A DNA stretch of 41,797 nt from contig DATDPG010000014.1 of NCBI GenBank assembly GCA_035292885.1, positions 1 to 41,797 on the forward strand. The letters run 5' to 3'. Each line of letters begins with the position of its first letter. Positions within the stretch are counted from its first letter, which is position 1. A program made the translations under genes and the position numbers. The DNA is from Bdellovibrionota bacterium. GTDB taxonomy: Bacteria > Bdellovibrionota_G > JALEGL01 > DATDPG01. Shown piece after piece: positions 19,695 to 40,345 of this stretch. Under the pieces are notes generated by a model, which was given only the letters and a program-made list of their open reading frames with translations, had not been told where the DNA came from and did no database searches.

Positions 19695-20719
19695 TGAGTT
19701 ACCTGCAGTACTACGGCCTCGAACAGGAACCTTTCTCGAACGCTCCCGTCAGCCGATTCTATTTTCACTCGAAGCAACATGATCAGGCGCTTCTGCGTCT
19801 CCGGCGCGTGACGGATCAGATGAAGGGTCTGGCCGTCCTGGTCGGAGATATCGGCGCCGGCAAGACGACGCTCGCGCGAAAGATGCTCGATAGCCTTCCG
19901 GAGAGTGATTATGAAGCTGCGTTATTGGTGATCATTCACTCTTCGATTAGTGCTCAGTGGCTGCTTCGGCGGATCGCCCAGCAATTGGGAGTTCAAAAGC
20001 CGGCGGAGACCAAGCTTCAGATTTTGAGTCAGCTCTATCGGCGGCTGCTTCAAATCGCGGATAGCGGCAAAAAAGCGGTCGTATTGATCGACGAGGCGCA
20101 GATGTTACAGACGCGGGAGATCATGGAAGAGTTCCGCGGCCTACTCAATCTGGAAATCCCCGATAAAAAGCTGATTACGTTTATTTTCTTCGGTCTTCCC
20201 GAAATCGAAGACACCCTGAAACTCGATCCTCCTCTCCAACAACGAGTGGCGTTCAAATACCGACTGGATGCCTTTGATTCCGAATCGACGCGTCGCTACA
20301 TCGAACACCGCTTGAATCTTTCGGGTGCGACGAGAGCGATTTTCGATGCAAGCGCCATTGATGCCATCCATCAATATTCAAGGGGAATTCCGCGGTTGAT
20401 TAACACGCTGGCCGACAATGCGTTGTTTGAAGGATTTATCTTGAAGAGTGAAACGATTCGGACGGAGATCATCGAAAACATCGCCGTGGATCTTGGGCTT
20501 TCCGTTGCGCAAAAACGTGAGCTCCGGGTTGTCGGCAGCGATCAACCGGTCACCGTCGTGGACGAGGTATCGTTCGGAAATCCATTGGCGGAACCGCCGC
20601 TCATCCCTGAAGTGGAACTGGCGGAAGAGAAACCCGCGGAGCAACCCTTTGAGCGGTCCGAAACGCCGGAAAACGAGGATATTGATTCCATTCTCGCCGG
20701 CCTCGAAGAGAAGCTTTAG
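19694..20719 (+). CDS. ExeA/GspA-type AAA ATPase
   Basis: A 341-residue P-loop ATPase. The opening MSYLQYYGLEQEPFSNAPV is the ExeA/GspA signature. Walker A is GDIGAGKTT (51-59), Walker B VVLIDEAQ (129-136), and sensor 2 lies in YSRGIPRLINTLADNAL (about 229-245). The C-terminal 60 residues are acidic and Pro-rich; no membrane segment or peptidoglycan-binding domain is visible, unlike full GspA. ExeA-type proteins help assemble secretins across peptidoglycan, which would suit the PilQ or CpaC secretins in this window. The stop codon TAG is part of the following palindromic element. Confidence 0.88.
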   Translation: MSYLQYYGLEQEPFSNAPVSRFYFHSKQHDQALLRLRRVTDQMKGLAVLVGDIGAGKTTLARKMLDSLPESDYEAALLVIIHSSISAQWLLRRIAQQLGVQKPAETKLQILSQLYRRLLQIADSGKKAVVLIDEAQMLQTREIMEEFRGLLNLEIPDKKLITFIFFGLPEIEDTLKLDPPLQQRVAFKYRLDAFDSESTRRYIEHRLNLSGATRAIFDASAIDAIHQYSRGIPRLINTLADNALFEGFILKSETIRTEIIENIAVDLGLSVAQKRELRVVGSDQPVTVVDEVSFGNPLAEPPLIPEVELAEEKPAEQPFERSETPENEDIDSILAGLEEKL

Positions 20720-20885
20720 TGTCCCGAGTCCGACATATCTTGATAGACGGCCGCCGCTGCATCCCGGCTGGCTGCGTTGCTCCTCCTCAGCGTGCGGCCC
20801 TGCAAGTACGCCATCGTCGTCGCGCCTTGCCATCCGGGTGCATCGGTGTCCTTTGTTATCAAGCTATCTCGGACTCGGGACACTA
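20717..20885. repeat. Long imperfect palindrome (element A)
   Basis: The outer arms TAGTGTCCCGAGTCCGA (20717-20733) and TCGGACTCGGGACACTA (20869-20885) are perfect inverted repeats, and pairing continues inward (CTTGATA with TATCAAG; CATCCCGG with CCGGGTG-type bases). The centre contains TCCTCAGCGT ... CAAGTACGC, shared with element 0. The left tip includes the TAG stop of the ATPase gene. No reading frame of note lies inside. Its arms recur around hicA-hicB at 38367 and 39188. It may be a MITE/REP-type mobile palindrome and may also act as a transcript end. Confidence 0.85.
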
Positions 20886-29783: not shown

Positions 29784-30197
29784 GTGAAGTTCGTGATGCG
29801 GCAATCGTTTCTATTCCTGGTCGTTCTTTTCGTTTTTGCCGCGAGTTGCGGAAAGCCGAGGGTTCAGAAATTATCCGAGCGGGCCGATTCCTACAATCGG
29901 GCGCTTCGGTGGTCCAGCATCACGGCGGCAAGCACGTTAATCGCCGAAGATGTTCGTCGATCGGTGATTCAGGACTTGCTGCAAAAGATCGGCCGGAATC
30001 GAATCGTGGACTACTCGATAGTCGACCTTGGTGTGGATCCCGAAGAGATCAAAGCGAGCATCCTGGTCGAGTTCAGCTATTACGGAATATCCGATCAGGA
30101 CCTGAAATATCGCCAAGAAGTTCAAAACTGGGCGTGGGATTCACGGCAGAGGGATTGGTTTCTGCGCGAAAGCCGAGATCTTCCCGCGCCGAAGTAA
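29784..30197 (+). CDS. Putative small lipoprotein
   Basis: A 137-residue protein with a signal peptide ending FAASC (Cys 22). The mature part is mixed alpha/beta with a helix (SERADSYNRALRWSSITAAS) and strands IVDYSIVDLGVDP and KASILVEFSYYGI, and ends QNWAWDSRQRDWFLRES. The pattern is like small NTF2/cystatin-type periplasmic domains, but I cannot assign it. GTG 29784 is used; an ATG at 29796 is possible. The stop codon TAA touches the palindromic element that follows. Confidence 0.75.
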   Translation: MKFVMRQSFLFLVVLFVFAASCGKPRVQKLSERADSYNRALRWSSITAASTLIAEDVRRSVIQDLLQKIGRNRIVDYSIVDLGVDPEEIKASILVEFSYYGISDQDLKYRQEVQNWAWDSRQRDWFLRESRDLPAPK

Positions 30198-30362
30198 GGA
30201 CCCGTGACAAAATAACCTAGACATTTTTGCTTGGTCTTTTGAACCAGCTCTTCGTTGTTCGTCCTCGCGTTAGTGCCTCTGGCTAGCGCTTCGTCCTCAC
30301 GCCTCGATCTGATTCAAAATCCGTTGCGCAAAAATTGTCTACCTTATTTTGTCACGGGTCCT
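30197..30362. repeat. Long imperfect palindrome (element B) between convergent genes
   Basis: AGGACCCGTGAC (30197-30208) pairs with GTCACGGGTCCT (30351-30362). The pairing continues through AAAATAA/TTATTTT-type bases, GACATTTTTGC with GCAAAAATTGTC (to about 30230 and 30328), and TTTTGAACCAGCTC with GATCTGATTCAAAA. The core carries TCGTCCTCGCGT, related to elements 0 and A. It fills the whole gap between a plus-strand stop (30195-30197) and a minus-strand stop (30368), so it may serve as a two-way terminator. Confidence 0.85.
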
Positions 30363-37175: not shown

Positions 37176-38354
37176 CTACACGACTTGACCCGCCGCCCAG
37201 CCGGATGCCCAGGCCCACTGGAAATTGTACCCGCCCAACCAGCCGGTCACATCCACGACTTCGCCTATAAAATAGAGTCCCGGCACCTTCTTGGATTCCA
37301 TCGTCTTGGACGAAAGTTCGTTCGTATCGACGCCGCCTCGAGTGACCTCCGCCTTGTTGTAACCGACGGTTCGTTTGGGAATGAATTCCCATCGATTCAG
37401 CATTCGACCGAAAGCCTCTAGTTTGGAGTCAGCGATGGATCCGATCGGCCCCGAGTCGGCCAGATACTGGTTGGAAAAGAGATCCGCAAAACGGTTGGGA
37501 AGGAGAGGGACAAGCAAACGTTTCACCCGTGCGTCCGGATTTCTGCGCTTTTGGTCGATCAACCAGGCGGAGGCGCGGATCTTGGGCAGGAAATTGACGC
37601 TGACAACGTCACCGGTGTGCCAATACAGAGAAGCTTGCAGAGCGGCGGGGCCGCTGAAACCGACGTGAGTGAAAAGAAGACTTTCACGAAAAGAGGATTT
37701 GTCGCATTGAATTTCGGCATTGAGGGAAACGCCGGCCAACGATCCGAATTGCGTCCGTTCCGGTTCGGCGAAAACAAAACCGTCAAGCGCCGGGGCGGTG
37801 TCCACGATGTTGAGTCCAAACTGGCGGGCGATGCGATACCCGAAATCGCCGGCGCCGATCCGTTGAAAGGAGAGGCCGCCGGTGGCGATCACCAAGGAAT
37901 ACGAATCAAATTCATCTCGACTCGTCACGCAATGGAACGTGGATGTTTTTGTGACACTTTCCACGCGGCAATCGAGAAAGAGCTCGACGTGGGCGGTATC
38001 ACATTCGCGGATGAGCATGTTTACGATTTGATCGGCGAGGCCGTCGCAAAAGAGCTGTCCCAAATGTTTCTCGTGAAAGGCGATTTTGTGCCTCCGGACC
38101 AGCTGAATGAAATCGGCCGGCGTATAACGGGAAAGGGCGGAGATCATGAATCGAGGATTTTGAGAGACGAACCGCTGGGGCACCGTGCCGGTGTTCGTGA
38201 AGTTGCACCGTCCGCCTCCGGAAATAATGATTTTGCGGCCCGGCCGGCCGGAGTGTTCGAGGAGAACTACGGATCTCCCGCGCTTACCAGCTTCAATGGC
38301 ACACATCATTCCGGCTGCGCCGGCGCCGATGATGACGACATCATAGGAGGCCAT
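37176..38354 (-). CDS. NAD(P)/FAD-dependent oxidoreductase, HI0933/BaiN family
   Basis: A 392-residue flavoprotein. The Rossmann motif VVIIGAGAAGMMCAIEAGKRG (about 5-25) binds FAD, followed by GRPGRKIIISGGGRCNFTN, the HI0933 signature. The C-terminal FAD site is VTGWLGGYNFQWAWASGWAAG. Members are common and reduce unsaturated substrates in some cases (BaiN), but the substrate here is unknown. Length is normal. Its start is 12 bases from the left arm of the hicA-hicB element, so the promoter of this gene would lie in or beyond that arm. Confidence 0.92.
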   Translation of the reverse strand: MASYDVVIIGAGAAGMMCAIEAGKRGRSVVLLEHSGRPGRKIIISGGGRCNFTNTGTVPQRFVSQNPRFMISALSRYTPADFIQLVRRHKIAFHEKHLGQLFCDGLADQIVNMLIRECDTAHVELFLDCRVESVTKTSTFHCVTSRDEFDSYSLVIATGGLSFQRIGAGDFGYRIARQFGLNIVDTAPALDGFVFAEPERTQFGSLAGVSLNAEIQCDKSSFRESLLFTHVGFSGPAALQASLYWHTGDVVSVNFLPKIRASAWLIDQKRRNPDARVKRLLVPLLPNRFADLFSNQYLADSGPIGSIADSKLEAFGRMLNRWEFIPKRTVGYNKAEVTRGGVDTNELSSKTMESKKVPGLYFIGEVVDVTGWLGGYNFQWAWASGWAAGQVV

Positions 38355-38366
38355 GGGGGATACTAT

Positions 38367-38410
38367 CGCGAGTCCGACATGCCTTGATAGTCAGTCGCCG
38401 CTACGTCCCG
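38367..38410. repeat. Left arm of inverted-repeat element C
   Basis: GAGTCCGACAT (38370-38380), CTTGATAG (38383-38390) and CGCCGCTACGTCCCG (38396-38410) match the left arm of element A (20724-20765) with a few differences, in the same orientation. The arm is complementary to the right arm at 39141-39188 (GAGTCCGA with TCGGACTC; CTTGATA with TATCAAG). Confidence 0.8.
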
Positions 38411-38429
38411 ACTCGATCCAGAAGGTTTT

Positions 38430-38855
38430 TCATGCCGCAAGGCGGATATCGATATTCTCTCCCAGAGCTTCGCTGATCGTAACAAGAGTCTTGACGGTCG
38501 GGTTTGATTTACCCGGAGTTTCCAACTTCTGAAGTTGTTGAAACGTGATGCCGATCCGTTTAGCAAGCTCCTTCTGCGTAAGTCCATGCCTCCGGCGTTC
38601 CTGGCGTATCAGCAACGGGATTAATACATCTTCATAGGGAGTAACCCACTCATACCGCTTGCTTCGTCGAACCTTCGAACGAGGCAGATCCCATTTCGGA
38701 TCACGCGCTTCCTCCAGATATAGGCTCATTGCTTCCCGCGCATTTCGGCGAGCTTCATCCCTGGTCGCTCCGTCACTAAAGCACCCCGGGAGATCCGGAA
38801 ATTCAACGGAGTAACGAGTGCCATCTTTATAGATCTTTGCTTGATACCGAATCAT
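38430..38855 (-). CDS. hicB: HicB-family antitoxin with XRE DNA-binding domain
   Basis: A 141-residue antitoxin. The N-terminal HicB domain (about 1-65) shows RYSVEFPDLPGCFSDGATRDEARRNAREAM, the partial RNase H-like fold that covers the HicA active site. A C-terminal XRE helix-turn-helix (about 82-135, RHGLTQKELAKRIGITFQQLQKLE) should bind the operator upstream of hicA. Its start overlaps the hicA stop by four bases (ATGA). The toxin-first order is the usual one for hicAB. Its DNA target is likely the perfect palindrome at 39053-39072. Confidence 0.93.
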   Translation of the reverse strand: MIRYQAKIYKDGTRYSVEFPDLPGCFSDGATRDEARRNAREAMSLYLEEARDPKWDLPRSKVRRSKRYEWVTPYEDVLIPLLIRQERRRHGLTQKELAKRIGITFQQLQKLETPGKSNPTVKTLVTISEALGENIDIRLAA

Positions 38856-39043
38856 AAGAGTTTCTCTCCCGTCTGTTTTTCTATCGCGCGCACCAATCCA
38901 ATTCCCAAATCGTGGTTGGCGTGGACAGGCACCTCCGTCATTTTTCCCTCCTTAACCAGTTTGACATGAGAACCTCGCTGGCTTTTCACGACCCATCCTC
39001 GCTTTCTCAGGATTTTGATGACCTTCTTTCCCGAGATGGGCAT
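38852..39043 (-). CDS. hicA: HicA-family mRNA interferase toxin
   Basis: A 63-residue toxin with a double-stranded RNA-binding-like fold. MPISGKKVIKILRKRGWVV and the catalytic-His segment SQRGSHVKLVKEG are diagnostic. HicA cuts mRNAs in translation. I use ATG 39043, the usual MPxSGKxV start; an in-frame ATG-like start at 39061 would add six residues inside the operator. No ribosome-binding site precedes the ATG, and the promoter is so close that the message may be nearly leaderless. It looks intact. Confidence 0.92.
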   Translation of the reverse strand: MPISGKKVIKILRKRGWVVKSQRGSHVKLVKEGKMTEVPVHANHDLGIGLVRAIEKQTGEKLL

Positions 39044-39052
39044 TCGGCATGT

Positions 39053-39089
39053 ATACAGCAATTATGCTGTATTTCAAGACTTTAGGCAA
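39053..39089 (-). promoter_or_regulatory. hicAB promoter with palindromic operator
   Basis: On the minus strand TTGCCT (39084-39089) and CATAAT (39061-39066) are spaced by 17 bases. The -10 box lies inside a perfect palindrome, ATACAGCA-ATTA-TGCTGTAT (39053-39072), ending ten bases before the hicA ATG. A repressor bound here, most likely HicB through its XRE domain, would block RNA polymerase. Confidence 0.7.
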
Positions 39090-39102
39090 GCGGATGCCTC
39101 TA

Positions 39103-39137
39103 TGTAAAAAGAAAAGGGCCAACCTTCCGCCCGGCCC
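39103..39137 (-). terminator. Rho-independent terminator on the minus strand
   Basis: On the minus strand GGGCC (from 39137) pairs with GGCCC (39120-39116) across a 12-base loop and is followed by a T-rich run (TTTTCTTTTT, 39115-39106). It would stop transcripts coming from the helicase gene at 39194-40345 before they enter hicA. Confidence 0.75.
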
Positions 39138-39140
39138 CCC

Positions 39141-39188
39141 GGTCGCATCGGCGTCCTTTGTTATCAAGCTATCTCGGACTCGGGACAC
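39141..39188. repeat. Right arm of inverted-repeat element C
   Basis: From GCATCGG (39145) to CGGGACAC (39188), this is almost base-for-base the right end of element A (20840-20883), with one clear difference (GGCGTCC instead of GGTGTCC). The end lies five bases from the stop codon of the helicase gene (39194-39196). Confidence 0.85.
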
Positions 39189-39193
39189 GAGGG

Positions 39194-40345
39194 TTAGCGC
39201 CAGCGGCGTCTCCGGTTGTCCCGTGGACCCGGGGTGGGTGCGCGTTCCAACTCGACTCTTTGATGTATGGCCTTCTCGATTTTCTGCAGCAGTTCAAGAT
39301 CGTACTGCGTCACAAATGTGATCGCGTCTCCCTCCTTTTTTGCGCGGGCCGTCCGGCCGATCCGATGGAGGTAATCGTCCGGGTCTCGGGGAATGTCGAA
39401 GTTGACCACATGCGAGACGTCGTTGATGTCTAAACCACGCGAGGCGATATCGGTGGCCACCAAAACTCCGATTTCGCCGCGCCGAAAGCGTTCCAGCGCT
39501 TCCACGCGTTCTTCCTGCGGCCGGTCCCCGTGAAGCGCATCGCAAGCCACGCCCGCGTTGTGCAGTTTTCGATCCAGACGGCGCACCTCGTTTTTGGTCC
39601 GGGCGAACACCAAGACCGATTCCATCCTTTCCGCTCGGAGGAGGCGGAGCAGGAGACTTTCTTTGCCGGTCGGCGATACCTCGAAGAATCTTTGCCGGAC
39701 GGACGCGACAGGCATCTGCCGGCCGATCTGAATTTCCTTCGGATGGCGCATGAATTGCCGGGCCAGTTTTTTTACCTCGGGACTGAGCGTGGCGGAAAAG
39801 AGCAGCGTTTGGCGCTCCGTCGGGAGTTTCGAAAGAATGGTTTGAACGTCGGGCAAAAAACCCATGTCGAGCATCCGGTCGGCTTCGTCGAGAACCAGCA
39901 CCTCGACCGAACCGAAGTCGACGTGGTCGAAACGAAGATGATCGAGCATCCGTCCCGGCGTGACGATCAGCACTTCGACCTTCTCGCGGATCACGCGTTC
40001 CTGGTAACCGAACGACAAACCTCCGACGACGCACGCGGACGACACACCTGTGTAATAAGCCAGGCCGGTCAGCTGTTCGTCGATTTGTATGGCCAATTCA
40101 CGCGTGGGAGTCACGATCAGCGCCCGGGTCACGCCTTCAGGAAGGCGCAACAGTCGGTCGATCAACGGAATCAAAAAGGCCGCGGTCTTTCCCGTCCCGG
40201 TCTGCGACGCGCCGAAAAGATCGTGACCTTCCAGGGCAAGGGGGATGACCTGTTCCTGGATCGGAGTCATTTCCCGGTATCCCATGTCGCGGATCCCATC
40301 CAGGAGACGGGAATCGAGAGGAAGGTCTTCAAAAAGCCGGCTCAC
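39194..40345 (-). CDS. rhlE: DEAD-box RNA helicase, RhlE-like
   Basis: A 383-residue ATP-dependent RNA helicase with all core motifs: Q motif in MTPIQEQVIPLAL, motif I ASQTGTGKTAAF (about 46-57), Ia PTRELAIQ, TPGR, motif II VLDEADRMLDMGF, motif III SAT, motif IV VFARTK, LHGD, motif V VATDIASRGLDI and motif VI HRIGRTARA. A short basic tail (RDNRRRRWR) is all that follows the helicase core, as in short RhlE-type proteins of ribosome assembly or RNA decay. It starts at GTG 40345. The symbol is at subfamily level. Confidence 0.93.
   Translation of the reverse strand: MSRLFEDLPLDSRLLDGIRDMGYREMTPIQEQVIPLALEGHDLFGASQTGTGKTAAFLIPLIDRLLRLPEGVTRALIVTPTRELAIQIDEQLTGLAYYTGVSSACVVGGLSFGYQERVIREKVEVLIVTPGRMLDHLRFDHVDFGSVEVLVLDEADRMLDMGFLPDVQTILSKLPTERQTLLFSATLSPEVKKLARQFMRHPKEIQIGRQMPVASVRQRFFEVSPTGKESLLLRLLRAERMESVLVFARTKNEVRRLDRKLHNAGVACDALHGDRPQEERVEALERFRRGEIGVLVATDIASRGLDINDVSHVVNFDIPRDPDDYLHRIGRTARAKKEGDAITFVTQYDLELLQKIEKAIHQRVELERAPTPGPRDNRRRRWR

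Follow-up and report, generated by a model that had tools for sequence, protein, structure and literature searches.

A hicAB toxin-antitoxin operon between the two ends of a palindromic repeat element in a Bdellovibrionota genome

In the genome of a Bdellovibrionota bacterium (GCA_035292885.1), a hicAB operon was found where the middle of a palindromic repeat element should be. The window, by which we mean the whole stretch of 41,797 nucleotides that was analysed (contig DATDPG010000014.1), carried the two ends of this element on either side of the operon. We consider it probable that hicAB, acquired by horizontal transfer, was inserted or joined into a resident REPIN/MITE-like palindrome at its tip.

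The reference copy of the element, intact and 169 bp long, lies at 20717-20885 on the forward strand with the ends TAGTGTCCCGAGTCCG...CGGACTCGGGACACTA. The palindrome that a preliminary description had placed there is real: its arms are 93% complementary and its single strand was predicted to fold into a long hairpin (z = -6.2). From shuffled sequences, 0.04 occurrences of the terminal 18-mer would be expected in the window; there are three. In the source genome (3.10 Mb in 214 contigs) we counted 15 intact copies with lengths of 162-169 bases and identities of 86-100%, and about 20 copies in total; beyond the intact ones there were two copies that run off the ends of contigs, a truncated copy and a divergent one, shortened copies of 46 bases and short stumps. 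Double changes that preserve pairing were seen at 8 of the 52 predicted pairs. The element's arms differ from each other in sequence, its end types being asymmetric. The base preceding the TAG at the start of the element was mostly T, also C or A, and only in some copies did the extreme ends show a TA-type duplication; outside the ends of the intact copies, no target duplication was seen by eye.

The element is noncoding and multicopy with terminal inverted repeats, like a MITE, and consists of inverted halves that fold into one hairpin, like a REPIN. It shares with REPINs and REP elements (Bertels and Rainey 2011, PMC3116915; Di Nocera 2013, PMC3733652) its short length, its multicopy and mostly intergenic occurrence, the hairpin formed by the whole element and the compensatory changes. 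Unlike them, it lacks a GTAG/CGTC tag at the base of the stem, is present in few copies (about 20), does not have its ends beside either of the two Y1 genes of the genome, and is conserved in its core and variable in its arms. An Rfam scan of the elements returned tRNAs only, blastn against a plasmid collection gave no match, and the exact arm pattern was absent from the genome_contigs collection and from viral contigs.

Two further observations concern the copies themselves. The first TAG was the stop codon of the abutting gene in the window copy at 20717 (L001), where it ends the upstream reading frame, and likewise in L005 and L006 (1501-1503) and at L035:6216, which suggests a preference either for gene ends or for a target TAG. 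In the shortened copies of about 46 bases (L032:3076-3121, L034:1587-1632) the ends were joined almost directly and formed a near-perfect short hairpin; these copies probably arose via deletion of the palindrome centre.

At the hicAB locus, the left arm (38361-38413, forward strand) corresponds to element positions 1-53 and the right arm (39139-39188, forward strand) to positions 118-167. As had been described before, the arms match the two ends of the palindrome in the same relative orientation; they turned out to be slightly longer than first delimited. A genome-wide search with arm models recovered the left one at 38366-38413 with an E-value of 9.9e-8 and the right one with 2.1e-17. Both are of the correct asymmetric end type and in the proper relative orientation, and their similarity to the consensus ends at mirror positions around the palindrome centre. 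The middle of the element (approximately positions 54-117, about 64 bases) is gone, and some 725 bases with one hicAB operon stand in its stead. Because the arms are not identical and each is of the correct end type, they represent one interrupted element. The initial proposal that hicAB replaces the core of the palindrome was thus borne out, with end-type-correct halves and symmetric breaks. The outer spacings are tight: about 6 bases separate the left arm from the ATG of an HI0933-like flavoprotein gene (37176-38354, minus strand; PF03486, E 3e-90), and about 6 bases lie between the right arm and the stop codon of a DEAD-box helicase gene (39194-40345, minus strand; PF00270/PF00271), so that the gap into which the element originally inserted was about 12 bases. 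Both arm halves were within one contig, and in an assembly of 214 contigs a misassembly at a repeat keeps some residual chance.

The arms were also said to be complementary to each other, and this held in part only. The end types do match, but much of the left arm no longer pairs with the right one, chiefly at the degraded outer end of the left arm (TACTATCGCG vs TAGTGTCCCG). Against the consensus of the 15 intact copies, the left arm showed 10 mismatches in 53 positions and the right arm, near-perfect, 1 in 49 (over 39140-39188). The combined divergence of 11/102 is within the range of the intact copies, 2 to 12, and therefore fits one ordinary copy. The distribution over the arms, however, is unequal (Fisher p = 0.008), contrary to what one would expect of a single old copy. 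It could instead be read as the trace of two separate truncated copies of unlike age that flank an older hicAB insertion by chance, and lone halves or fragments do occur elsewhere in the genome (C63:13850, C76:40984, C157:521). Yet two lone halves of opposite type would face each other within 900 bp with a simulated probability of about 0.002, assuming 4 left and 3 right lone halves, near the numbers seen in the genome; that both are also truncated in a complementary manner at mirror positions lowers the likelihood further. Such a coincidence of two copies is very improbable. One intact copy (L007) is unbalanced as well, more mildly (1 vs 7, p = 0.027), and the imbalance at the hicAB locus is a blemish on the single-copy reading, not a refutation of it.

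The cargo itself is an ordinary member of the HicAB family. The antitoxin gene hicB (38430-38855, minus strand) encodes 141 amino acids with a HicB-like domain (PF15919, E 7e-12) and an Xre-type helix-turn-helix (PF01381, E 5e-14). The toxin gene hicA (38852-39061, minus strand; PF07927, E 6e-17) encodes at most 69 amino acids, its start codon being uncertain, and overlaps the start of hicB by four bases (ATGA), making up a two-gene operon. HicA contains the motif GSHVKL with the expected active-site histidine and has solved relatives in 5yrz and 9svk. At the hicA start lies an operator palindrome (39054-39073; ATACAGCATAATTGCTGTAT on the minus strand), and all six hicAB loci that were aligned have its consensus, ACAGCATA..GCTGT, in this position. 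HicA would act as an mRNA interferase, and HicB would neutralise it and repress the operon via the operator palindrome. The gene order and the helix-turn-helix of HicB agree, without differences, with the HicAB modules known for their patchy distribution and horizontal spread (Makarova et al. 2009, PMC2701414). A terminator-like hairpin with a T tract (39113-39140, minus strand) lies between hicA and the right arm, touching the right-arm junction, and could insulate hicAB from the upstream helicase gene; a terminator consensus scan gave 2 matches in the region against 1.1 expected, weak if taken alone. From the earlier account of the cassette we thus retain a single hicAB between the arms and a conserved operator, while the terminator is present as a hairpin with weak support from the scan. 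No recombinase and no target duplication accompanied hicAB.

The closest HicB relatives, most of them outside the window's phylum, came, by MAG label, from Oligoflexia (78% identity), Euryarchaeota (73%), Acidobacteriota (70%), Deltaproteobacteria (65%) and Bacteriovoracaceae (54%); the Oligoflexia MAG very probably belongs to the window's own phylum. The neighbouring flavoprotein had its best match within the same order at 48-49% identity. An in-phylum identity of 78% for HicB against about 49% for the flavoprotein, together with 70-73% in MAGs labelled Acidobacteriota and Euryarchaeota, argues for horizontal transfer, and judging by these comparisons hicAB has probably moved horizontally. 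In the five closest hicAB relatives, homology ran from the operator to the hicB stop only, the flanks were unrelated, and no inverted repeats surrounded the operon; the Acidobacteriota relative was not inside a palindrome. Searching viral contigs with HicB brought up nothing closer than distant helix-turn-helix matches, and the 20 records listed for plasmids reached no more than 37% identity. In two genomes of the same order the flavoprotein was present with helicase and hicAB not adjacent, so the gene order was not kept, and neither an empty site nor an allele with the element alone turned up there. As an aside, the Euryarchaeota-labelled contig (L107) carries the same operator next to its 73% HicB, reflecting either inter-domain transfer or a misbinned contig.

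Taken together, these data would be accommodated by the following course of events. A resident, noncoding palindrome of the REPIN/MITE-like type would first have inserted into the narrow space that separates the helicase and flavoprotein genes. Later, hicAB would have inserted into this copy, or would have been joined into a break at the tip of its hairpin. About 64 bases of the middle would have been lost symmetrically, and the arms would remain around hicAB as passive remnants. Palindromic repeats are part of what may be a small insertion-tolerant intergenic space, so that one such event per genome would need no special targeting. Insertion sequences are known to target REP palindromes (Tobes and Pareja 2006, PMC1525189), and there, as at the hicAB locus, foreign DNA interrupts a palindromic repeat. 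Those insertion sequences bear a transposase and the events recur, whereas in the window a toxin-antitoxin operon without a recombinase did so, and was seen once. The locus contributes one clear instance of a palindromic repeat in which foreign DNA has landed.

The alternative favoured by the preliminary description was that MITE/REP-like arms are the carrier of hicAB, that is, terminal inverted repeats of a non-autonomous transposon mobilised in trans. Such a vehicle would explain the spread of toxin-antitoxin pairs that have no recombinase of their own. The geometry, with inverted arms of about 50 bp and hicAB between them, and the multicopy, dispersed nature of the element family in the source genome speak for it. 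The searches did not support it. When the whole genome was scanned with a sequence-only model for either arm, no second facing arm pair with cargo came up: among all arm matches, facing pairs were limited to the intact copies and the hicAB locus. This was the arm search that the preliminary description had suggested, and with other cargo lacking in the source genome and the hicAB relatives armless, the findings largely agree with the outcome that it had itself named as refuting the carrier idea. HicA had seven matches in the source genome, of which one lay between arms and six were armless. Single-arm sites at C63, C76, C109, C157 and C162, considered as further carriers, were stumps or internal deletions, and those at C124 and C159 were 46-bp shortened copies of the element.

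No transposase with matching ends came out of the searches either. For DDE transposases these were the arm searches, and of Y1/RAYT-like transposase genes there were two, neither of them flanked by element ends or core, so that the anticipated RAYT gene with matching ends did not appear. That no target duplications were seen by eye around the intact copies counts against the transposon too, as do the degraded outer left end and the missing core, which is conserved across phyla. Since hicAB removed this core, the armed copy is probably immobile. In the related Acidobacteriota family of 28 copies, no split copy and no facing pair of halves with cargo was among those listed. Transposon-like units of this general build do exist, namely TIMEs and Tn3-family transposons with toxin-antitoxin pairs (PMC4133298, PMC7157771). 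The window unit resembles them in having inverted ends around a cassette and a toxin-antitoxin pair tied to mobile DNA, and differs in showing no 5-6 bp target duplication, in having no transposase or resolvase, and in being a single instance. A search of the literature for hicAB with a MITE or palindrome gave no hit. We regard the transposon as very unlikely.

A specific version of our preferred reading, in which hicAB came into a resident palindrome, concerns the route of entry. An SbcCD-type nuclease would have cleaved the hairpin tip, both ends would have been resected equally, and a fragment with hicAB would have been joined in, the palindrome serving as break site and not as vehicle. In E. 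coli, SbcCD is established as a nuclease that cleaves palindrome hairpins (PMC4245961, PMC3315005), and such cleavage would account for the symmetric loss that left positions 1-53 and 118-167; the long hairpin and its covarying pairs (double changes at 8 of 52) also speak for this route. The junctions, on the other hand, showed neither microhomology nor another signature, and the truncated copies at C63, C157, C124 and C159 had no common break pattern. This particular route is therefore conceivable but unlikely.

The less familiar part of the case is the palindrome family itself, which merits a study of its own. The Acidobacteriota MAG with the hicAB relative contained a family of palindromes of 165-177 bases with ends TAGCAG...CTGCTA in 28 full-length copies (L209:842-1018 and 27 more in the genome of L108). 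They matched the window element in the core only (positions 32-70 and 99-129), not in the arms. Within the source genome, palindromes at C202:15254 and C206:260 also had the same core and different arms, and genome G010, outside the window's phylum, held a variant of the palindrome. Including the copy at 20717-20885 with the 15 source-genome copies and a further one at L045 (approximately 1465-1630), these long imperfect TAG...CTA palindromes have a core, GGCTGCGTTGCTCCTC ... GTCGCGCCTTGCCA, that is common to different phyla, and arms that vary from one genome to another. Among the copies compared, conservation resides in the core and variation in the arms, the reverse of a usual MITE. The exact core pattern was absent from viral contigs and from 384 other genomes, and a literature search for a stretch of the core found no match. 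One might go further and suppose that in these multi-phylum palindromes with conserved core and variable arms the hairpin tip is a recurrent joining place for foreign operons such as hicAB, which would amount to an unrecognised route of entry of toxin-antitoxin pairs into chromosomes. With one tip-joining event seen, we give this generalisation very little credence.

Two minor observations may be added. The palindrome on C206 with the shared core and different arms (L037:246-350) lies directly after a tRNA gene. The window also contains an unrelated strong inverted repeat at 30197-30362, with ends AGGACCCGTGACAAAATA and 32-base arms that are 91% complementary and 102 bases apart.
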